From IMG/VR virus record IMGVR_UViG_3300030101_003056, positions 1 to 26,586 of that record: a stretch of 26,586 nt of DNA, one strand, 5' to 3'. The stretch's first letter is position 1. Each line of letters begins with the position of its first letter. The notes below the pieces were generated by a model that did not search any database, had not been told where the DNA came from, and worked only from the letters and a program-made list of their open reading frames with translations. This DNA is from a virus. Below are positions 5,590 to 24,804 of the stretch, piece by piece. A program made the position numbers and the translations under genes.

Positions 5590-5982
5590 TTAAGCAATTA
5601 ATTTATCTATATTATATTTTATACCAAACTGCCATAGAAAGTCTGTTAAATCATTGTTATATTCTTTATATTGACCTCTATTGTATAATCCTATTATTTT
5701 ACAATCTTTAAACATTATTGTCTCATGAGACATAGTGTCGTGTTCACAATAAACGATTGAACCTATATTGCCAGATTTTTCCCAAGAATCAATTATTCTT
5801 TCTAACATCATTCTCTGACCAATAGGAACTTTGTTTCCTACCTTTTTTAACTCAAATAATAATAAATACTTTGAATCAAATTCTAAAACTGCATCTATGT
5901 CTGATGGATGTATTTTACCATTTTGAACTCCAGTAAAATCAATTACTTGCTTAATTCTTTGAGGATTTTTTATTAATCCCAT
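5590..5982 (-). CDS. Putative PD-(D/E)XK-type nuclease-like protein
   Basis: This 130-residue protein is the last gene of the leftward operon. Residues 24-47 read as an Asp-rich strand (IHPSDIDAVLEFD) followed by a hydrophobic strand ending 'LLLFELKK'. This gives D28/D30, E44 and K46, the spacing of a PD-(D/E)XK nuclease core. A Gln/Arg-containing helix follows (GQRMMLERII), which fits the QxxxY-like position of several phage enzymes in this superfamily. The substrate is unknown: it could be a recombination or repair nuclease, or an anti-host nuclease. It overlaps the upstream ORF by 32 bases. The fold call is from motif reading only. Confidence 0.5.
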   Translation of the reverse strand: MGLIKNPQRIKQVIDFTGVQNGKIHPSDIDAVLEFDSKYLLLFELKKVGNKVPIGQRMMLERIIDSWEKSGNIGSIVYCEHDTMSHETIMFKDCKIIGLYNRGQYKEYNNDLTDFLWQFGIKYNIDKLIA

Positions 5983-6145
5983 GTTCTAAATTTTTTAAAC
6001 TATTATCCTCTACTTTTATGAAATCTTCTAAAATATTAAGCTGTTCTTTATATTTATTAATTATTTTTCTTCTATGTTTTAAATCATGCATATTATTAGA
6101 ACAGGAATCTAAGAAATGATTTTTTATAAGTTCAGCGATTTCCAT
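5951..6145 (-). CDS. Small charged hypothetical protein
   Basis: This is a 64-residue ORF rich in Lys, Glu, Asn and Leu, with a likely amphipathic or coiled-coil helix from about residue 20 to 55. It overlaps both neighbours (22 bases upstream, 32 downstream), as is common in this operon. I do not recognise it. Its reality rests on its place in a chain of overlapping ORFs on one strand. Confidence 0.5.
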   Translation of the reverse strand: MEIAELIKNHFLDSCSNNMHDLKHRRKIINKYKEQLNILEDFIKVEDNSLKNLEHGINKKSSKN

Positions 6146-6384
6146 AGTTTTAATTTATCTTTCAGCAACCTTTGTTCTTGATTTAATCTTCTTTTCTCTA
6201 TTGTAATATACTCAATCCTTTTTTGAATTATATAATCTAAAGAATCTGTTATTTCATTAATTGGTATAGATACACTAATTAATTCATTATCATGATATGT
6301 GATACCTTCAAAAGTAATATCGTTATCATCTGACCATAGAGAATCAATATTACGCATCATTATATATTTATTTGGATTATTCAT
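6124..6384 (-). CDS. Hypothetical protein with coiled-coil C-terminus
   Basis: This is an 86-residue ORF from the ATG at 6384, beginning MNNPNKYIMMRNIDSLW. I prefer this start to the in-frame ATG at 6408 because it overlaps the TGA of the tiny upstream ORF as ATGA, a junction used repeatedly in this genome. The first half looks like a small beta domain; the last 35 residues (IQKRIEYITIEKRRLNQEQR and on) form a likely coiled coil. No family is recognised. Confidence 0.5.
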   Translation of the reverse strand: MNNPNKYIMMRNIDSLWSDDNDITFEGITYHDNELISVSIPINEITDSLDYIIQKRIEYITIEKRRLNQEQRLLKDKLKLWKSLNL

Positions 6385-6464
6385 GATACAAAAATTAATC
6401 CTAACCATGTTAATGCAAAAAGCAAAAACACAAACATAAAATCTTCTATATATTTATTTTTCAT
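6381..6464 (-). CDS. Tiny membrane peptide (27 aa)
   Basis: ATG at 6464 and TGA at 6381-6383 encode a peptide whose core (MFVFLLFALTWLGLIFV) is a single transmembrane segment. The stop overlaps the next ATG as ATGA, which supports real translation. An in-frame ATG at 6488 would give 35 residues. The function is unknown. Confidence 0.4.
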   Translation of the reverse strand: MKNKYIEDFMFVFLLFALTWLGLIFVS

Positions 6465-6579
6465 TTTTACAAAATTTACATATTCCATTTTTTCTAGAAA
6501 CTATTCTGTAACAAGTGTTTCTGCTACAAATCCAAACATCTAGAAAAAACTTAGTAATTATTTTAATAATTTGATGCAC
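6454..6579 (-). CDS. Tiny possible zinc-ribbon ORF (41 aa, GTG start)
   Basis: This frame runs from a GTG at 6579 to a TAA at 6454-6456. It encodes a Cys pair spaced C-x4-C (VWICSRNTC) and a second pair C-x2-C (GICKFC), as in small zinc ribbons. It fills the only gap between the genes ending at 6563 and starting near 6464. It overlaps the 3' end of the upstream gene and the start of the tiny membrane peptide. With no ATG the start is uncertain, so the ORF is tentative. Confidence 0.35.
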   Translation of the reverse strand: MHQIIKIITKFFLDVWICSRNTCYRIVSRKNGICKFCKNEK

Positions 6580-6883
6580 GTATAGGAGGTTGACATTCAA
6601 CATAAGCCTGTACTTTTAATATTACAGTATCACAATCTGGATGTGTCTCTACCCCAAGAGCATCTAAATGTGCACCCCATATATCTGGATTATCATCCTT
6701 TTGTATTTCAAACCATACTGGCTGATAAAATTTAACTGATTGTGATTCAAAAATCTCATCAGATAATGATTTAATAGTGTTCACTTGTTCATTTATAGAG
6801 GTTTCTTTTTTTATTGTATGTCCTCTTTTTTTCAGTTGCTTATATGCATCTGAATTAGGTAATATATCGCTAATCTTTTTCAT
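6563..6883 (-). CDS. Hypothetical protein (106 aa)
   Basis: The protein starts MKKISDILPNSDAYKQLKKR, has a basic and probably helical first 30 residues, and ends in a beta-like Cys-containing segment (TVILKVQAYVECQPPIRA). No family is recognised. It lies 14 bases downstream of the 140-residue ORF in the same leftward operon. Confidence 0.6.
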   Translation of the reverse strand: MKKISDILPNSDAYKQLKKRGHTIKKETSINEQVNTIKSLSDEIFESQSVKFYQPVWFEIQKDDNPDIWGAHLDALGVETHPDCDTVILKVQAYVECQPPIRASNY

Positions 6884-6897
6884 AATATTGTTTTAAA

Positions 6898-7320
6898 TTA
6901 TTTAGTTTGTACAGTTTCATTCTCTCTGCTAAGTATTATAGGATGATATTCATTATATATCATTCTAGCAGCATCAACCCATTCTTTTTCAATAAAAGAG
7001 TTACCATCATTTGTAAAGATATTATATAATAAACTACCTAAATTTTGCATTGTTTTTAATAAATCAATATCCTCATCAACTTCAACTTCATCAAAACTAA
7101 TATTATTATTTTCTCTGTATTGTAAATTATAAGCAGTAATATTTGCTACGTACATATACCATAACATTCTCCCAATATAATCTTCTACAGTTTCAAAAGA
7201 ATATTTACATCTATATTTATAATGTTTACTTTTTTTAACTAATTCCAATATTTCTTTATTAGTTATTAATCCTTGATTAATATTCGTAATAAATTTTTTG
7301 TCATATAATATTACACTCAT
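6898..7320 (-). CDS. Hypothetical protein (140 aa)
   Basis: The protein starts MSVILYDKKFITNINQGLIT and is mostly helical in character. Its middle is aromatic (YIGRMLWYMYVANITAYNLQ) and is followed by an acidic stretch (FDEVEVDEDIDLLK). The middle is amphipathic rather than a clear membrane span. It starts two bases after the stop of the upstream small ORF, so they are probably co-translated. No function can be assigned. Confidence 0.6.
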   Translation of the reverse strand: MSVILYDKKFITNINQGLITNKEILELVKKSKHYKYRCKYSFETVEDYIGRMLWYMYVANITAYNLQYRENNNISFDEVEVDEDIDLLKTMQNLGSLLYNIFTNDGNSFIEKEWVDAARMIYNEYHPIILSRENETVQTK

Positions 7321-7322
7321 TT

Positions 7323-7478
7323 TTAATTATTTATTTTGTTGTATCCTAATTTTTGTAATTCATTATTTACATAGTTTTTTAAAGCAAATGATTTGAAGCC
7401 ACCGCATTCCTCCTTGAGGTATTTAGTGCCTTGAATTAATAAATTGTCAATTAATTCTATTGAAGGTTCTTTTTTCAT
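7323..7478 (-). CDS. Small hypothetical protein (51 aa)
   Basis: ATG at 7478 and TAA at 7323-7325 give 51 residues starting MKKEPSIELIDNLLIQGTKY. The composition is ordinary for a soluble helical protein (FKSFALKNYVNNELQKLGY). It fills an otherwise empty stretch between two genes and is preceded by a TAnnTTTG box at 7504-7511, which supports expression. The family is unknown. Confidence 0.55.
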   Translation of the reverse strand: MKKEPSIELIDNLLIQGTKYLKEECGGFKSFALKNYVNNELQKLGYNKINN

Positions 7479-7503
7479 TTTTAATTATTTAATTATCAAT
7501 AAT

Positions 7504-7511
7504 CAAATTTA
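7504..7511 (-). promoter_or_regulatory. -7 promoter box (TAAATTTG) inside the leftward operon
   Basis: On the - strand this matches TAnnTTTG and lies 25 bases before the ATG at 7478. The 72-bp gap around it is extremely A+T rich and is one of the few true gaps in the operon. It is a likely internal promoter for the distal half. Confidence 0.4.
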
Positions 7512-7550
7512 TAAATATTTTTTTATAAAAAAAAATATATATAGTTTTTT

Positions 7551-7901
7551 TTAGAAAGTTTTTAGAATTTTATTTTCGACTAGCATTTCAAGAATCTCTA
7601 ACCAGTCATTTTTTTCCATGATAACATATTCCCTACCACCTTTTCTTTTATGATAAATTAATTTGTATAATGGTTTATTAGGCCTCATTTGGTCTAAAAT
7701 TTTATGATAGCTTGGGTTATTAGTAGTTGATTTACATTGTATAGCAAAGGGGTCTGTGCCAACTAAATCTATTTTTGCATTATCAATCATTTTAGATGCA
7801 TATCTTGATGTTTCACAAAATTTCCATCCAAAATTTCTAAACTCTTTGCGTATTGCTCTCTCGTAATCGTGTCCCTTTCGCCTTGATTTCATTCCTGACA
7901 T
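7551..7901 (-). CDS. Holliday-junction-resolvase-like nuclease (PD-(D/E)XK)
   Basis: This 116-residue protein starts at ATG 7901, with alternative starts at ATG 7892 or GTG 7919. The N-terminus 'SRRKGHDYERAIRKEFRNFG' is followed by 'ETSRYA', then 'NAKIDLVGTDPFAIQCKST'. The ordering of E14, D45 and the Q55-x-K57 motif matches archaeal Hjc-type and phage resolvase-like PD-(D/E)XK nucleases, which open with a helix carrying the first Glu and are 110-140 residues long. The likely role is cleavage of branched DNA made during replication or recombination, before packaging. A TATCTTTA box at 7906-7913, just before the ATG, may be a promoter. It shares the operon with the RecE-like nuclease. Confidence 0.7.
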   Translation of the reverse strand: MSGMKSRRKGHDYERAIRKEFRNFGWKFCETSRYASKMIDNAKIDLVGTDPFAIQCKSTTNNPSYHKILDQMRPNKPLYKLIYHKRKGGREYVIMEKNDWLEILEMLVENKILKTF

Positions 7902-7942
7902 ACAATAAAGATAATACACTTACAAGTACAATAGCAATTATT

Positions 7943-8269
7943 TTAATTATTCTTTTTTTCACCATCTCTTTCTATAAATAAAGCATATCCTAAATAACAA
8001 TAATTTATAATATCTGAAAACCTTGAATGTATAGGCTCTGATTTTTTAAGATTAGCGTTTTTTAAATGTGCATATACTGATTGTACTTGCTTGTCCATAA
8101 ATGTTGCCCATACTTTTAATTCAGATGTGTCTAATCTATTAGCAGTTGATTTAAAATTGTACAAAACATCTTCATCTTCGTTCGTATATTCTGGTCTTTT
8201 GTTTTGCATTATATCAAAACTATAATCATTTAATTGTTTAACTAATTTATTAAATTCTTTTTGTGTCAT
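7943..8269 (-). CDS. Phage protein of an uncharacterised helical family
   Basis: This is a 108-residue protein with a 'DEDVLYNFKSTANRL' segment (about residues 32-46), a 'DKQVQSVYAHL' helix and a 'SEPIHSRFSDIINYCYLGYA' segment near the C-terminus. The combination of an 'x-L-x-NF' helix and an 'E-x2-x-R-x2-D-x2-NY' helix reminds me of a widespread phage protein family of about 80-110 residues with no established function. A link to all-alpha nucleotide pyrophosphatase or nucleotide-modification proteins is only a resemblance. Its start overlaps the upstream stop as ATGA. Confidence 0.6.
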   Translation of the reverse strand: MTQKEFNKLVKQLNDYSFDIMQNKRPEYTNEDEDVLYNFKSTANRLDTSELKVWATFMDKQVQSVYAHLKNANLKKSEPIHSRFSDIINYCYLGYALFIERDGEKKNN

Positions 8270-8511
8270 ATCACTTTTTTTAATATATCATATTTTAATG
8301 GGTCAAGTTCTTTAATCTTAGATAATAATATTAATTGTTTATTTTTAGCTTTTGCTCTTTCTTTATCTGTACTATCAATGCCGAGATTACATTCAATAAT
8401 TTGACATTTATGCATAAGTGCATCAATTTTTGATTTGACAATTTTATTAGTGTTGTATGCACCATATAATTCTCTTTTTTCGTGTTTGCTTAATTCATCT
8501 GATATTGTCAT
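8266..8511 (-). CDS. Small helical hypothetical protein (81 aa)
   Basis: The protein starts MTISDELSKHEKRELYGAYN and is highly charged and helical throughout, with one Cys pair (CQIIEC). It is joined by ATGA overlaps to the RecE-like nuclease gene upstream and to the 108-residue ORF downstream, so the three are translated together. It could be a partner of the nuclease, but nothing in the sequence shows a function. Confidence 0.6.
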   Translation of the reverse strand: MTISDELSKHEKRELYGAYNTNKIVKSKIDALMHKCQIIECNLGIDSTDKERAKAKNKQLILLSKIKELDPLKYDILKKVI

Positions 8512-9263
8512 AATACTAAACTACCATCATTATTAAAATTTTCCCACCAGTAACTAGATATATTGCTAGTTTGTAAATATTCTTTCCAACATTCAAAAGC
8601 TATACGCCATGCATCTTTCCCATATTCTATCATATCTTCACTCATAGCGTAAACCTCAACTGTGTAAGGATATTTATTCTCTATAGTAATAAATCTAAAT
8701 TGAGCAGGGTCATATCCTAATGCTTCACTATAGAAACATGCTTGTAAATGGTAAGCATAATTATAAATTTGACTTTTAAAAAATTTTGGACTAGCGTCAG
8801 ATGTTGTTTTAATGTCAATAATATATTCTTTTTCTTTGATGCCATCTGGTCTAATTCTTACAGGAATTTTATCTATTTTTCCGTAATAAGAAACTTCTGT
8901 TTCTGTGAGCCGTTGTATTAAATTTTTAGCTAATTTATGATTATAGACATTCCTTTTTATTTTATCTATAGCCTCTTTTTCTTCATGTTTAATTATAATT
9001 TTTCCTTTGTTGCCATAAATGAAATTATCTTTTATTTTTTTGCCATCATTTGTCCTAAGGTTCACTTTAGGCATTACAGCAATCTCATCACCACCTTCAA
9101 GTATTGCAGAATGCACAGCACTACCAAAGTTCATTGCATCAGTCATTTTAAAAATGCTGTTAAGATGATGATAAATGGATTTTTTAAAAATAGTTTTCAA
9201 ACCACTAGCTGATATACTTTTATGTGAATGATATTGTTCATTACTATCTTTTATTTTTTTCAT
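8508..9263 (-). CDS. RecE/exonuclease VIII-like PD-(D/E)XK nuclease
   Basis: This 251-residue protein starts at ATG 9263. An upstream in-frame TTG at 9269 is less likely. The motif 'NFGSAVHSAILE' (about residues 45-56) is the N-terminal helix signature of RecE-type phage exonucleases. 'VRIRPDGI' then supplies an Asp (D140) and 'YIIDIKTT' supplies the D-x-K pair (D150, K152). A 'HLQACFYSEAL' helix gives the Q-x3-Y element. The family degrades one strand of duplex DNA 5' to 3' to make 3' tails for annealing and recombination, usually with a RecT, Erf or beta annealing protein. No annealing protein is recognisable in the window; the small SSB-tail protein upstream may be the DNA-binding partner. 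Confidence 0.82.
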   Translation of the reverse strand: MKKIKDSNEQYHSHKSISASGLKTIFKKSIYHHLNSIFKMTDAMNFGSAVHSAILEGGDEIAVMPKVNLRTNDGKKIKDNFIYGNKGKIIIKHEEKEAIDKIKRNVYNHKLAKNLIQRLTETEVSYYGKIDKIPVRIRPDGIKEKEYIIDIKTTSDASPKFFKSQIYNYAYHLQACFYSEALGYDPAQFRFITIENKYPYTVEVYAMSEDMIEYGKDAWRIAFECWKEYLQTSNISSYWWENFNNDGSLVL

Positions 9264-9302
9264 AGACAAATATTATAATTTTTTTTAAGAGTAAAAAATA
9301 TT

Positions 9303-9452
9303 TTATATAATTTTTTTTAAATATTTTTTAATATGCCATTTAAAATAATACATGACATATATTATAAATGGAGACGTATATATTATTGTCCATAAATTAG
9401 GATGCCAATGTTCACCGCATAAACCTAAAAAATGTTTGAAAATTTCTATCAT
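9303..9452 (-). CDS. Small membrane protein (49 aa)
   Basis: ATG at 9452 and TAA at 9303-9305 give 49 residues. The N-terminus is MIEIFKHFLGLCGEHWHP, with Cys and two His, followed by a single hydrophobic segment (LWTIIYTSPFIIYVMYYF) and a basic tail (KWHIKKYLKKII). The shape is that of a one-span inner-membrane protein with its C-terminus inside. It occupies the 280-base gap between the RecE-like gene and the SSB-tail gene. The function is unknown. Confidence 0.5.
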   Translation of the reverse strand: MIEIFKHFLGLCGEHWHPNLWTIIYTSPFIIYVMYYFKWHIKKYLKKII

Positions 9453-9465
9453 ATTTACAATATAA

Positions 9466-9523
9466 AAAAAGAGCCTTCAAAACTCCTAACTGCTTAATTA
9501 AATTTGTTTATCCAGCTCTTAAC
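9466..9523 (-). terminator. Possible weak terminator or attenuator
   Basis: On the - strand an AGAGC near 9520 can pair with GCTCT near 9475, followed by a run of seven T. The outer stem is short and encloses about 45 nt, with a weak inner AAAC/GTTT pairing. It lies after the SSB-tail gene and could reduce read-through into the downstream genes. Confidence 0.3.
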
Positions 9524-9547
9524 CCAAACTACAAAATGTGTGATAAT

Positions 9548-9802
9548 TTAGAAAGGCATATCACTAGCCTTATCTTCAACGGTTTTAGCAGGAGAAAAGT
9601 CATTGTAAGCCACATATAAATCTTGACCTGCTTTTAATTTATTTCTCAATTTACCAATAGTAAGGTTTAGAAATTTTCTGTCACCAACCTTTTGAATACA
9701 ATTTGGATTCTCTGCTAATTTATTTAAATCAATCTGTATATTAGAAAAATCTCCATATTTACCAGTTTTGGTCCATCCACTACCTAAATATAATTTGCTC
9801 AT
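9548..9802 (-). CDS. Small protein with SSB-like C-terminal tip
   Basis: This 84-residue protein has predicted beta strands (KLYLGSGW, FSNIQIDL, KFLNLTIGKL, DLYVAYNDF) followed by a short linker. It ends 'VEDKASDMPF'. An acidic tail ending in D-(I/M)-P-F is the hallmark of bacterial single-stranded DNA-binding proteins, where it recruits repair and replication enzymes. At 84 residues it is shorter than a standard SSB (about 110 residues for the OB fold alone). It may be a reduced ssDNA-binding protein, or a decoy that engages host SSB partners. It is coupled (TAATG) to the gene upstream and lies two genes before the RecE-like nuclease. Confidence 0.55.
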   Translation of the reverse strand: MSKLYLGSGWTKTGKYGDFSNIQIDLNKLAENPNCIQKVGDRKFLNLTIGKLRNKLKAGQDLYVAYNDFSPAKTVEDKASDMPF

Positions 9803-9990
9803 TATTTTAAAAGTTTATTATTATTGTTATACTTCTTACCAGTTGCACAATAGTAAGCAATCTCACTAGCAACATCAATAACATCATCAACTGTAATGTC
9901 ATTCATACCTTGTTCTGATTTTAATTTAAAAAAATCTATTGAGGCCTTAATGGAACTCTGTCTTATAATACTTTTTTGTACATCTTCCAT
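9802..9990 (-). CDS. Hypothetical protein (62 aa)
   Basis: The protein starts MEDVQKSIIRQSSIKASIDF. It is an acidic, helical small protein ending in an Asn/Lys tail (KKYNNNNKLLK). TAATG overlaps join it to the HTH gene upstream and the SSB-tail gene downstream, so the three form a tight early cassette. No family is recognised. Confidence 0.6.
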   Translation of the reverse strand: MEDVQKSIIRQSSIKASIDFFKLKSEQGMNDITVDDVIDVASEIAYYCATGKKYNNNNKLLK

Positions 9991-10181
9991 TATAGCTCTA
10001 TTATTAAACTTTTTATAAATCCAACCTTAGCAAGTTTCTTTAATTCTGATATTTTTAATGTATCGGGATTATTAAATTTATTGTACATCGTCATAGATGT
10101 TACGTCAATTTTGTTTGCTAATTTTTCTTTATTTAGTCTCATCTCCTTGAGACGAGATTCTAATATTTCTTTTGTTAGCAT
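9990..10181 (-). CDS. Small HTH DNA-binding regulator (Cro-like)
   Basis: This is a 63-residue protein. Residues 12-45 read as helix-turn-helix: 'EMRLNKEKLANKIDVTSMTM' then 'YNKFNNPDTLKISELKKLAK'. The pattern 'KLANKIDVTSMTMYNKFNN' is a typical XRE/Cro recognition unit. It is the first gene of the leftward operon and faces a divergent control region with three ATTAC-N3-GTAAT repeats, so it probably represses its own promoter and/or the rightward early promoter. Its promoter box TAATTTTG ends four bases before the ATG, suggesting a leaderless or near-leaderless transcript. It could be the Cro-type half of a lysis/lysogeny switch, but no CI-like partner or integrase is in the window. Confidence 0.72.
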   Translation of the reverse strand: MLTKEILESRLKEMRLNKEKLANKIDVTSMTMYNKFNNPDTLKISELKKLAKVGFIKSLIIEL

Positions 10182-12313: not shown

Positions 12314-12850
12314 ATGAGAAAAAAAGTAAAGGTTAAAGATATTATTGCTAATAAAGAAAATCCAAGAATTATATCAGATATAAAATTTGAAAAATTAGTA
12401 AAATCAATAAAAAATTTTCCAGAGATGTTAGAAAAAAGACCATTAATTGTAGATGAAAATATGGTTGTTCTTGGTGGTAATATGAGATTGAAAGCTTTAC
12501 AAAAAGCTGGATTAAAAGAAGTTACTATAGATATTGCAAACGGATGGACAGAAGAACAGAAAAAAGAATTTATAATAAAAGATAATGTAGGATTTGGGGA
12601 ATGGGATTGGGATATATTAGCTAATACTTGGAATGTTGAAGAAATAAAAAATTGGGGTTTAGATGTACCAGATTATCATGAATTACCTGATTTCAATGAA
12701 TTAGATGAAAATAAAAAGAATAAACCTGCTACAATGAAAATAACATTTCAAAACGTAGATGATTTGCAAAAAGCCGAGATTGATATAAAAGAGTTATTAG
12801 ATAGAAAATATAATGGTGCACATTTTTCAGTAAGTGCAGGAGAAATATGA
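12314..12850 (+). CDS. ParB/sulfiredoxin-fold protein, partner of Mom
   Basis: This is a 178-residue protein. Residues 1-75 form a ParB N-terminal (ParB/Srx) domain: 'DIIANKENPRII' gives the ENPR box, and 'LIVDENMVVLGGNMRLKALQ' gives the GG-x-x-R motif that in ParB proteins binds nucleotide. Residues 88-118 (FIIKDNVGFGEWDWDILANT and on) match the connector seen in phage ParB-methyltransferase fusions. The last 45 residues hold a small domain with 'AHFSVSAGE'. Here the methyltransferase is replaced by a Mom-like enzyme whose ATG overlaps this stop as ATGA. A role in DNA modification is therefore inferred. Alternative roles are DNA binding in packaging, or nuclease activity as described for some ParB-domain proteins. 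Confidence 0.78.
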   Translation: MRKKVKVKDIIANKENPRIISDIKFEKLVKSIKNFPEMLEKRPLIVDENMVVLGGNMRLKALQKAGLKEVTIDIANGWTEEQKKEFIIKDNVGFGEWDWDILANTWNVEEIKNWGLDVPDYHELPDFNELDENKKNKPATMKITFQNVDDLQKAEIDIKELLDRKYNGAHFSVSAGEI

Positions 12851-13401
12851 TTTTAAAAAAAGCGTCTTATAAAGCTGTTAAATATGCATGTATGAATTAT
12901 CATTATGCAAAAGCAATACCAGTTACTAGATTGGCATATAATGTTTATAATAAAGAAAATGAATGGTGCGGATGTGTAGTTTTCGGTGGTGGTGCAAACT
13001 ATAGATTAGGAAATTCTTTTAATTTGACACATGGTCAATATTTAGAATTAACAAGAATGGCATTAAATGGAAAACAAGAAAGCACAAGTCAAGTTTTAGG
13101 TAGAGCAATAAAACTAGCTAAAAAACATTGTCCATCTATACAACTTTTAATTAGTTATGCAGATAAAGGGCAAAATCATAAAGGTATTATATATAAAGCA
13201 ACGAACTGGATTCTTATAGATGAAACAAAAACAAGTGGATGGGAAGTTTATTATAAAGGTAAATGGAGACATGATAGAATAATAGCAAATGTAAAAAATA
13301 GAGATAAAATACCTAAAAGAAAAAAATCTGGTAAATATAAATATGTATATCCTTTAAATAAACAAATGAAAAAATTATGTTTAAATATGAAAATATATTG
13401 A
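12847..13401 (+). CDS. mom: Mom-family adenine methylcarbamoylation (DNA modification) protein
   Basis: This 184-residue protein resembles phage Mu Mom, a GNAT-fold enzyme that converts adenine in phage DNA to N6-(methylcarbamoyl)adenine and so blocks many restriction enzymes. Seen here: an N-terminal 'NYHYAKAIP' with the His-Tyr pair H19-Y20; a beta strand 'WCGCVVFGGGANYRLG'; the core 'LELTRMAL'; and 'LISYADKGQNHKGIIYKATN' followed by W. From memory, Mu Mom depends on a His-Tyr pair and on an Asp and a Tyr ten residues apart (D139/Y149). Here D106 and Y116 have that spacing. It is shorter than Mu Mom (about 230-240 residues). No Mu-like Com translational activator is visible; coupling to the ParB-like gene by ATGA overlap may replace it. 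Confidence 0.82.
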   Translation: MILKKASYKAVKYACMNYHYAKAIPVTRLAYNVYNKENEWCGCVVFGGGANYRLGNSFNLTHGQYLELTRMALNGKQESTSQVLGRAIKLAKKHCPSIQLLISYADKGQNHKGIIYKATNWILIDETKTSGWEVYYKGKWRHDRIIANVKNRDKIPKRKKSGKYKYVYPLNKQMKKLCLNMKIY

Positions 13402-13470
13402 GCGAGTAGATAGATTTGAACTTCACCTACTAACTGGACGTTAATTGTGCTACCATTACACCATACTCGC
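13402..13470 (-). tRNA. Degenerate tRNA-Gly(UCC)-like gene, possibly pseudo
   Basis: On the - strand the 7-bp acceptor stem is perfect (GCGAGTA/TACTCGC). Positions 8-9 are TG, and the D arm GTGTAATGGTAGCAC is canonical. The anticodon stem pairs as ATTAA/TTAGT. The loop is CGTCCAG, giving anticodon TCC (Gly), and the next base (position 73) is T, as usual for tRNA-Gly. Two defects stand out. Position 33 is G instead of the near-universal T. The T stem has lost a base on its 5' side (GAAG facing CTATC, pairing only with a bulged A). CCA is not encoded. It is antisense to the late operon and abuts the mom stop codon. It is either a decaying tRNA gene or a tRNA-like element. Confidence 0.65.
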
Positions 13471-13515: not shown

Positions 13516-13866
13516 ATGAAAAACAACAAAATACAACATACTAAAAAAGCATTATTAGAATCTTTAGAAAAATCTTTAGGTGTAGTTACCACGGCCTGTA
13601 AGCAAGTTGGTATTGATAGAACTACATTTTATCGATATTATAAAGAGGATACAGACTTTAAAAAAAAAGTTGACGATTTGAGTAATGTAGCAAAAGATTT
13701 CGCAGAAAGTCAATTATTCAAACAAATACAAGACGGTAACCCAACAGCAACTATTTTTTACCTAAAAACAAAAGCAAAAGATAGAGGGTATGTTGAAAGA
13801 CAGGAAATCACACATTCTGGAGATGTGAAAACTGAAATAATACAATGGCAGCCGTCAAAAAAATAA
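13516..13866 (+). CDS. terS: Terminase small subunit
   Basis: This 116-residue protein probably recognises phage DNA and starts packaging with TerL. The N-terminal half is helix-turn-helix: 'LLESLEKSLGVVTTACKQVG' then 'IDRTTFYRYYKEDTDF', with the 'T-A-C-x-x-x-G-I-x-R-x-T-x-Y' pattern common in TerS of Bacteroidetes phages. A central helix (LSNVAKDFAESQLFKQIQDG) is followed by 'NPTATIFYLKTKAKDRGYVE', another recurring TerS segment. Its 3' end overlaps the TerL start by 22 bases. Length and position directly before TerL support the call. Confidence 0.87.
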   Translation: MKNNKIQHTKKALLESLEKSLGVVTTACKQVGIDRTTFYRYYKEDTDFKKKVDDLSNVAKDFAESQLFKQIQDGNPTATIFYLKTKAKDRGYVERQEITHSGDVKTEIIQWQPSKK

Positions 13867-15014
13867 AATGCAATATTCAATTTTACCAGTGTTTAAATAG
13901 TAAAAAAAGAATTAAAATTTTTCAAGGTGGCACAAGGTCTGGTAAGACGTATGCAATATGTCAATATTTAATTCATCTATTGTTAGCTACAAAAAAACCA
14001 CAAATAATAACCATTGCTAGAAAGACTTTACCTGCAGTAAGGGCATCAGTATTTAGAGATTTTATGGGAATATTAGAAGTTGTAGGAATATTGTATAATG
14101 GGTATTTAAATAAAAGTGAAATGATTTATTATTTTAATAAACATAAAGTGGAATTCATTAGTGTAGATGAGCCACAAAAAATTAGAGGAAGAAAGAGAAA
14201 TATTTTATTTATTAATGAAGCAAATGAGCTTACTTATGAAGATTTCAGACAGTTAATAATGAGAACAACAGGAGAGGTTATACTTGATTTTAATCCGTCT
14301 GACCCTATACATTGGATTTATGATGAACTTATGGAAAGAGAAGATGCAGAAACATTTATTTCAACATATAAAGACAATGCATTTTTAGAAAAAGAAATTA
14401 TTGATGAAATAGAAAGACTGAAAAACAGAGATGAACAATATTGGCGTGTTTATGGTCTTGGCGAAAAGGCAACATTTTCTGAGGGTATGATTTTTAATAA
14501 CTGGTCTTTTATAGATTATTCTGAATTTCCTGAAAGTGATGATGTTTTTTTAGCGTTAGATTGGGGTTACACTAATGACCCTACCGCAATCGTTGAATTA
14601 AGAAAACAAAATAATAAAATTTATATAAAGGAAATATGCTATAAAACTGGTATGACAAACCAAGATATATCTGTTTTTCTAAAACAGAACAAATATCAAA
14701 ATACAATTATATATTGCGATTCTGCTGAGCCAAAATCAATAGAAGAACTAAGGCAATCTGGTATATTGGCTAAACCTAGTATCAAAGGACAAGGTAGTAT
14801 AAATGCAGGAATTTCTTTAATTAAAGAATTTGATATATTTGTTTCTAATTGTTCTAAAAATATAAAACATGAATACCAATTTTATATTTGGGAAGAACTA
14901 AAAGATGGTACAAAAACAAATAAACCAAGAGATAAATATAATCACACAATGGATGCATTGCGTTATGGTATTTATACTAGATACAGTAATAAAACAGAAT
15001 TTTTTGTGTATTAA
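13845..15014 (+). CDS. terL: Terminase large subunit
   Basis: This 389-residue packaging motor and nuclease appears complete. The ATPase half has Walker A 'GGTRSGKT' (residues 28-35) and Walker B 'LFINEANE' (121-128), with the coupling segment 'VILDFNPSDPIHW' around 145-157. The RNase H-like nuclease half has conserved acidic residues in 'LALDWGYTNDPTA' (D239), 'IYCDSAEPKSIEELR' (D292) and 'YNHTMDALRYG' (D370). This layout fits the Terminase_3/PBSX-type large subunit and is slightly shorter than average (about 400-450). It docks on the portal encoded next. Confidence 0.96.
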   Translation: MAAVKKIKCNIQFYQCLNSKKRIKIFQGGTRSGKTYAICQYLIHLLLATKKPQIITIARKTLPAVRASVFRDFMGILEVVGILYNGYLNKSEMIYYFNKHKVEFISVDEPQKIRGRKRNILFINEANELTYEDFRQLIMRTTGEVILDFNPSDPIHWIYDELMEREDAETFISTYKDNAFLEKEIIDEIERLKNRDEQYWRVYGLGEKATFSEGMIFNNWSFIDYSEFPESDDVFLALDWGYTNDPTAIVELRKQNNKIYIKEICYKTGMTNQDISVFLKQNKYQNTIIYCDSAEPKSIEELRQSGILAKPSIKGQGSINAGISLIKEFDIFVSNCSKNIKHEYQFYIWEELKDGTKTNKPRDKYNHTMDALRYGIYTRYSNKTEFFVY

Positions 15015-24270: not shown

Positions 24271-24410
24271 TGGCTAAAAGATTTTATCTAAAAGCATACG
24301 AAAAAAAAGCAAAGAAAAAAAGGAAAGGAATACACAGTAAAAACAGAAATACAAATAATAAAAACGGTAAATATTATAGTGGCACAAAATATAGAGGACA
24401 AGGAAGGTAG
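24270..24410 (+). CDS. Small very basic peptide (46 aa)
   Basis: The peptide starts MAKRFYLKAYEKKAKKKRKG and ends 'YYSGTKYRGQGR'. About half the residues are Lys, Arg or Asn. A 'KKG-x-H-x-K-(N/T)' core with a final 'Y-x-GQGR' recurs, as I recall, in phages of Bacteroidetes, with no known function; nucleic-acid binding is plausible. The start overlaps the holin stop (TAATG), and the end overlaps the HNH gene by 32 bases. Confidence 0.6.
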   Translation: MAKRFYLKAYEKKAKKKRKGIHSKNRNTNNKNGKYYSGTKYRGQGR

Positions 24411-24804
24411 AGTATGTGCCAAATGTAAGAAATATAAACTTTTATCAAGATATTACAAAAGAGCTAATAAAAAACCAGAGATAAATTGTAGGGATTGCAG
24501 AAACAAGCAAAGAGAAAAAAACCATAGACATTGGAAACAACAATTTATTTATAAATTAAGCGAGTTTATTGATATTGCATGTGTAAGGTGCGGATATAAT
24601 AAAAATTTTGCAGCGTTAGACTTTCATCACACTAAAAGAAAAAAATTTGCTATTGCAAGAGCAATAAGAAATTTATCACATAAAAGTTTTTATGATGGTA
24701 AAGTTGATAGTATCTTAACAGAGATTATGAGCAAATGTGAGGTGCTATGTTCTAACTGTCATCGTGAACATCATAACAAGCATATAATGAAAATGAAAAA
24801 ATAG
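24379..24804 (+). CDS. HNH endonuclease with N-terminal zinc ribbon
   Basis: This 141-residue protein starts at a GTG (24379); no earlier ATG is available in frame downstream of the basic peptide start. The N-terminal zinc-binding part uses C13-x2-C16 and C37-x2-C40. The HNH domain has C68-x2-C71 (CVRCGYNKNF), the 'ALDFHH' motif (H83/H84), and 'KCEVLCSNCHREHH' with C124, C127 and the final His residues, forming the beta-beta-alpha metal site. Such genes are either free-standing homing endonucleases or helpers of packaging. Since it lies far from TerL, between lysis and tail fibre genes, the mobile-endonuclease reading seems likelier. Confidence 0.87.
   Translation: MAQNIEDKEGRVCAKCKKYKLLSRYYKRANKKPEINCRDCRNKQREKNHRHWKQQFIYKLSEFIDIACVRCGYNKNFAALDFHHTKRKKFAIARAIRNLSHKSFYDGKVDSILTEIMSKCEVLCSNCHREHHNKHIMKMKK

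Follow-up and report, generated by a model that had tools for sequence, protein, structure and literature searches.

A tRNA-Gly-like gene beside a phage mom gene and its ParB-fold partner: a DNA modification cassette probably fed by glycyl-tRNA

From which donor do enzymes of the Mom type take the group that they place on DNA adenines? The question has long been open, and as late as 2021 a review gave glycyl-CoA as the donor (PMC7824862). It is raised again by a locus in the viral record IMGVR_UViG_3300030101_003056 of IMG/VR, whose positions 1 to 26,586 were analysed as one stretch (hereafter the window) and in which a parB-like gene, a mom gene and a tRNA-Gly-like gene follow one another ahead of the packaging genes. 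The initial annotation described the first two genes and saw in the ParB-like protein a fixed partner that positions or regulates Mom. This interpretation is half right, as it overlooked the linked tRNA-Gly, the most telling component, which shifts the picture from ParB positioning Mom to a modification cassette fed by glycyl-tRNA. We propose, with a probability of roughly 0.78, a three-part phage DNA modification cassette consisting of Mom, a dedicated non-translating glycyl-tRNA donor and an exchangeable ParB DNA-loading partner. Mom and its dedicated glycyl-tRNA donor probably make up the system's core.

The 184-residue product of the second gene is a true Mom-type enzyme, with a predicted GNAT-type Mom fold over its whole length. 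It matches the Pfam family Mom (PF25680) with E 7.8e-32 (111 bits against a cut-off of 27.1) and a Mom-like PHROG with E 2.6e-44. Its AlphaFold model (predicted local distance difference test score, pLDDT, 94.9) superimposes best onto the Mu Mom crystal structure in the PDB (8bv8; Z 19.6, 173 residues aligned, root-mean-square deviation 3.0), followed by GNATs at Z about 12, and a family profile searched against the PDB retrieved 8bv8 as its sole match (E 1.9e-36). Structure prediction thus bears out the fold on which the first assignment depended. The Mom-type motifs named there, a His-Tyr pair and an Asp/Tyr couple, correspond to His19-Tyr20, Asp106 and Tyr116, which align with Mu Mom and are, like Glu67 and Arg70, invariant or nearly so among 50 aligned Mom proteins. 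The putative activity of the enzyme is the attachment of a glycine-derived group to DNA adenine. GNAT-like-fold aminoacyl-tRNA transferases were not found among the 50 structural matches listed for the model, which is uninformative either way. A tandem of three mom-like reading frames was noticed on a single viral contig (L333:2989-5031).

The tRNA-Gly-like gene was called by ARAGORN and matches the Rfam tRNA model with 41.4 bits (E 1.1e-06); it is antisense to mom and its 3' end touches the mom stop codon. The RNA retains G1-C72, C2-G71, U73 and the anticodon UCC with C35 and C36, and hence the complete bacterial identity set for glycylation (PMC9976931), which is also present in almost all relatives. 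It should be considered that G1, C2, U73 and the CC were partly demanded by our script searches; ARAGORN demands none of them and assigned the tRNAs next to mom to Gly or left them unresolved. Two features of elongator tRNAs, U33 and an intact T stem, are lost in the window RNA: G33 replaces U33, and the T-stem pairs 51-63 and 49-65 are replaced by A.A and U.C. The CCA is not encoded, and an exact match to a Bacteroidota-type -7 box was not found at this gene. Judged from its nucleotides, the RNA looks chargeable yet unfit for protein synthesis.

The linkage of such RNAs to mom extends far beyond the window. The window clade consists of the 80 IMG/VR loci whose Mom proteins are nearest to that of the window (54-100% identity). 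Every one of them was matched by a covariance model built for the tRNA-like RNA (E up to 7e-07); the matches lie on either strand and, almost without exception, no more than about 110 bases from the end of mom (one at ~410). A second Mom clade around L143 carries the RNA in 79/79 loci, and no match with E up to 1 was obtained in 69 control loci having a similar ParB but no mom. Covariance-model matches lie beside mom in 35 of 80 loci of the Appa clade and 22 of 80 of the phiEf11 clade, and RNAs lacking a D arm occur in many further loci of these two clades; near-duplicate contigs swell such raw locus counts. On bacterial chromosomes the RNA adjoins mom in 25/75 loci (three ordinary tRNAs set aside), including those of Bacteroidota, Bacillota, Acidobacteriota, Myxococcota, Ignavibacteriota and Chloroflexota, the last with the RNA upstream rather than downstream of mom. 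A one-line acceptor-stem pattern was found near mom in 320 of 425 Mom loci, at 0.89 matches per kb, compared with 0.029 per kb in the remainder of these loci and 2 matches in 569 kb of controls. Among isolated phages, Microbacterium phage Appa and Salinibacter phage B2_17 each have an annotated tRNA-Gly adjoining a mom-like gene; in Arthrobacter phage BarretLemon an unannotated tRNA-Gly-like gene (L163:4580-4650) overlaps the end of the mom-like gene 71. One contig of 2277 bases bears an identical tRNA-Gly-like RNA twice (L195:19-89 and 2175-2245), possibly as a terminal repeat. Mapped onto a tree built from 150 Mom proteins, the presence or absence of the RNA requires 22 changes, at least 10 of them on well-supported branches, and the label of RNAs lacking the D arm (D-armless) requires at least 11; these counts are rough, the simple per-locus classifier missing some covariance-model matches. 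The repeated changes argue that the linkage is not one inherited accident.

The anatomy of these RNAs was derived from 155 unique covariance-model matches, whose arms were parsed by script because their MAFFT alignment was unsuitable; RNAalifold recovered just 13 pairs from it owing to misplaced anticodon loops. All 155 begin with GCG, and all but one carry U73. C35-C36 is present in each of the 88 seven-nucleotide anticodon loops, U33 in just 33 of them, and 57/155 RNAs have eight-nucleotide loops. A purine-A mismatch (G.A or A.A) occupies one fixed place of the T stem in 197 of 209 unique RNAs (51/51, 44/44 and 48/60 in three RNA groups, 54/54 in the D-armless group). The tRNA-Gly genes of the hosts in the same genomes, e.g. 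of Taibaiella lutea, are normal, with U33, seven-nucleotide loops and intact T stems. Minus-strand RNA genes are preceded at 8-30 bases by a Bacteroidota-type -7 box in 18 of 36 cases, against 1.7 expected from shuffling. Many D-armless forms escape the covariance model and were therefore collected by an acceptor-stem/TCCA pattern, which requires a paired acceptor stem but makes no demand on the anticodon stem. The 54 unique D-armless RNAs, from 82 loci, all end in an encoded TCCA and overlap the 3' end of mom (e.g. L184:3597-3661), and an anticodon stem is present in 50 of them, compared to 1.8 in shuffles. Conservation of a C-terminal Mom peptide, conceivable as the cause since these RNAs overlap the mom frame, was judged less likely because the anticodon stems vary between RNAs yet remain paired.

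The third component, the ParB-like protein, comprises a domain of the nucleoside triphosphate-binding ParB/Srx fold (residues 1-95) and a tail of ~80 residues. Its AlphaFold model (pLDDT 86.5) matches ParB CTPase domains over residues 1-95, best Myxococcus ParB-CDP (7bnk, Z 14.4), and the motifs ENPR and GGNMR read by the initial annotation lie at residues 15-18 and 54-58. The Pfam ParB_N score stays under the cut-off (20.4 versus 26.3 bits), and Pfam gave no helix-turn-helix or C-terminal dimer domain in the 178 residues. Of the suggested C-terminal likeness to phage ParB-methyltransferase fusions, the part up to residue 132 is retained, where the match to phrog_498, the family of these fusions, spans residues 3-132; the last ~45 residues lie outside it. 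A parB-like gene is found directly upstream of mom in all 80 closest IMG/VR Mom relatives, so that the co-occurrence anticipated across phage genomes exists and the pairing in the window is far beyond chance. Counting adjacent ParB in four Mom clades (80/80, 78/79, 62/80 and 71/80), the protein is a near-constant partner there, and to this extent the notion of a fixed partner holds. It does not hold generally: no ParB match adjoins Mom in 47 of the 72 bacterial loci where this could be tested, and since the tRNA linkage is seen also at such Mom genes, ParB is not a universal Mom partner. The N-terminal ParB module is swapped between close relatives (e.g. L079 and L009) with the remainder of the protein alike.

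In related phages the slot between the replication genes and the terminase holds ParB alone or ParB with differing partners (e.g. L092:5847-6644, L154:6471-7571 and L128:5908-7125), namely a TET/JBP-like 2-oxoglutarate oxygenase (Pfam E 6e-09), an ABC-ATPase fused to a GNAT or a fused N6/N4 methyltransferase. This variety fits the earlier suggestion that Mom replaces the methyltransferase usually linked to this ParB, and the ParB-fold protein may be a general, exchangeable loader for DNA-modifying enzymes. For Mom, its role would be one of positioning or regulation.

Since the RNA co-occurs with mom, keeps its identity for glycine charging and has lost features needed in translation, it points to glycyl-tRNA as the Mom donor. 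The phage would supply its own tRNA-Gly, which the glycyl-tRNA synthetase of the host could charge by virtue of the conserved identity elements. With its mismatched T stem and without U33, in relatives sometimes with an eight-nucleotide loop or no D arm, this tRNA would be ill-suited to use by EF-Tu and the ribosome. Mom might then move the glycyl group from glycyl-tRNA onto the adenine N6 of phage DNA, and a rearrangement would yield a glycinamide-type adduct that blocks restriction. Such an adduct would resemble that of Mu, where Swinton et al. in 1983 reportedly found a glycinamide group on adenine. The co-translated ParB-fold protein may load or target Mom on the DNA ahead of packaging.

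Several observations weigh against this scenario or narrow it. U33 is kept in the 33 seven-nucleotide loops mentioned above. The T stem is intact in some actinophage RNAs (Appa, BarretLemon), so that escape from EF-Tu is not universal. Moreover, no linked tRNA was found at the Mom genes of Listeria (almost entirely), Proteus, Yersinia, Serratia and many Gram-positive bacteria, and a dedicated tRNA is therefore not essential to all Mom enzymes. The Appa copy, annotated as tRNA-Gly(ccc) with its normal T stem, would also suit an ordinary translation tRNA that supplements codons or replaces a host tRNA cut by anticodon nucleases and neighbours mom by chance, tRNAs being frequent in phages. A chance neighbour would, however, hardly be always glycine-specific, always a single tRNA and close to mom while missing from the matched loci without Mom, and the frequent loss of U33, the enlarged loops, the D-armless forms and the nearly universal T-stem mismatch are at odds with translation; we regard this explanation as very improbable.

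A same-strand overlap between the RNA and the 3' end of the mom frame, seen in many loci, would suit a cis element, be it a tRNA-like 3' end, a processing or regulatory signal of the mom mRNA or an integration site. The antisense orientation in the window and many relatives, often with an own -7 box, the upstream position in Chloroflexota and the full-length, glycine-specific nature of the RNA render this reading improbable. Alternatively, the tRNA could be irrelevant and the ParB-Mom pair alone modify DNA from an acyl-CoA such as glycyl-CoA, in line with the near-constant ParB linkage and the statement of the 2021 review. Against such a donor stand the linkage statistics and the RNA anatomy, the persistence of the tRNA where no ParB is adjacent, and one sentence in a 2025 phage meeting report, attributed to R. 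M. B. Silva (New England Biolabs), that the adenosine hypermodification of Mu depends on tRNAGly for glycyl transfer (PMC12908700). We consider an acyl-CoA donor highly unlikely here and retain glycyl-tRNA as the probable one.

Beyond the window, it appears likely, with slightly more reserve than for the cassette itself, that dedicated non-translating glycine tRNAs beside mom form a widespread class in phages and bacterial chromosomes that donates glycine for DNA modification, including minimal D-armless forms with the signature purine-A T-stem mismatch, and that ParB-fold proteins are exchangeable DNA-loading subunits of several base-modifying enzymes. Mom is a known enzyme type; mom-linked tRNA-Gly genes are not described in the literature found, the search having been thin on subscription papers and preprints. 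If the proposal is true, tRNAs dedicated to DNA chemistry and natural D-armless tRNA-like RNAs exist in phages, and hundreds of loci would have to be re-annotated. That a single ParB slot takes Mom, TET/JBP, GNAT-ABC or methyltransferase partners suggests an adaptor shared among phage DNA modification systems. The donor question can be tested with the isolated phages Appa, BarretLemon and Salinibacter phage B2_17.

The two protein genes are joined by an ATGA, as originally annotated (Table 1). They do precede the packaging genes, though not immediately, the tRNA-Gly-like gene lying between. Elsewhere in the window, an opposing minus-strand cluster (5590-10181) encodes a RusA-like resolvase (7551-7919) and an exonuclease VIII-like protein (8508-9269), and an HNH endonuclease-like gene (24379-24804) lies close to the window end.

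Table 1. Features of the ParB-Mom-tRNA locus and the adjoining packaging genes, in window coordinates.
Feature	Position	Strand	Basis or remark
ParB/Srx-fold partner gene, 178 amino acids	12314..12850	+	Open reading frame, Pfam/PHROG searches, AlphaFold model
mom gene, 184 amino acids, GNAT fold (predicted)	12847..13401	+	Pfam, PHROG, AlphaFold model, profile search
Overlap (ATGA) of the parB-like stop and the mom start	12847..12850	+	
tRNA-Gly-like gene	13401..13470	-	ARAGORN, Rfam
Anticodon UCC of the tRNA-Gly-like RNA	13436..13438	-	G33 at 13439
Terminase small subunit (start of packaging operon)	13516..13866	+	phrog_309, E 4e-14
Terminase large subunit	13845..15014	+	Pfam and PHROG searches

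In the Com-Mom system of Mu, translation of mom uses Com, and we know of no linked tRNA or ParB partner there. The Mom proteins of Mu and the window share family, fold and the His-Tyr/Asp/Tyr positions. The modification by Mu Mom is reported to be tRNAGly-dependent (PMC12908700), and the window cassette brings its own tRNA-Gly-like RNA together with a ParB-fold partner. The latter has the N-terminal nucleotide-binding fold in common with ParB of ParABS systems, from which it differs by the lack of a detected helix-turn-helix or C-terminal dimer domain and by its low ParB_N score. With the phage ParB-DNA methyltransferase and other ParB-CTPase-fold fusions (PMC12704722) it shares the ParB-fold module and the pre-terminase slot; unlike these, it is a stand-alone protein, coupled to Mom and without a methyltransferase. 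For the RNA, the closest counterpart is the non-proteinogenic tRNA-Gly of Staphylococcus aureus peptidoglycan synthesis, which is chargeable, feeds a non-ribosomal transferase and escapes EF-Tu after loss of the pairs 49-65 and 51-63 (PMC9976931), the same two that are broken in the window RNA. In contrast to the S. aureus tRNA, the putative acceptor here is DNA, and the mom-linked RNAs combine a conserved purine-A T-stem mismatch with altered anticodon loops, are in part D-armless and are encoded beside their enzyme.
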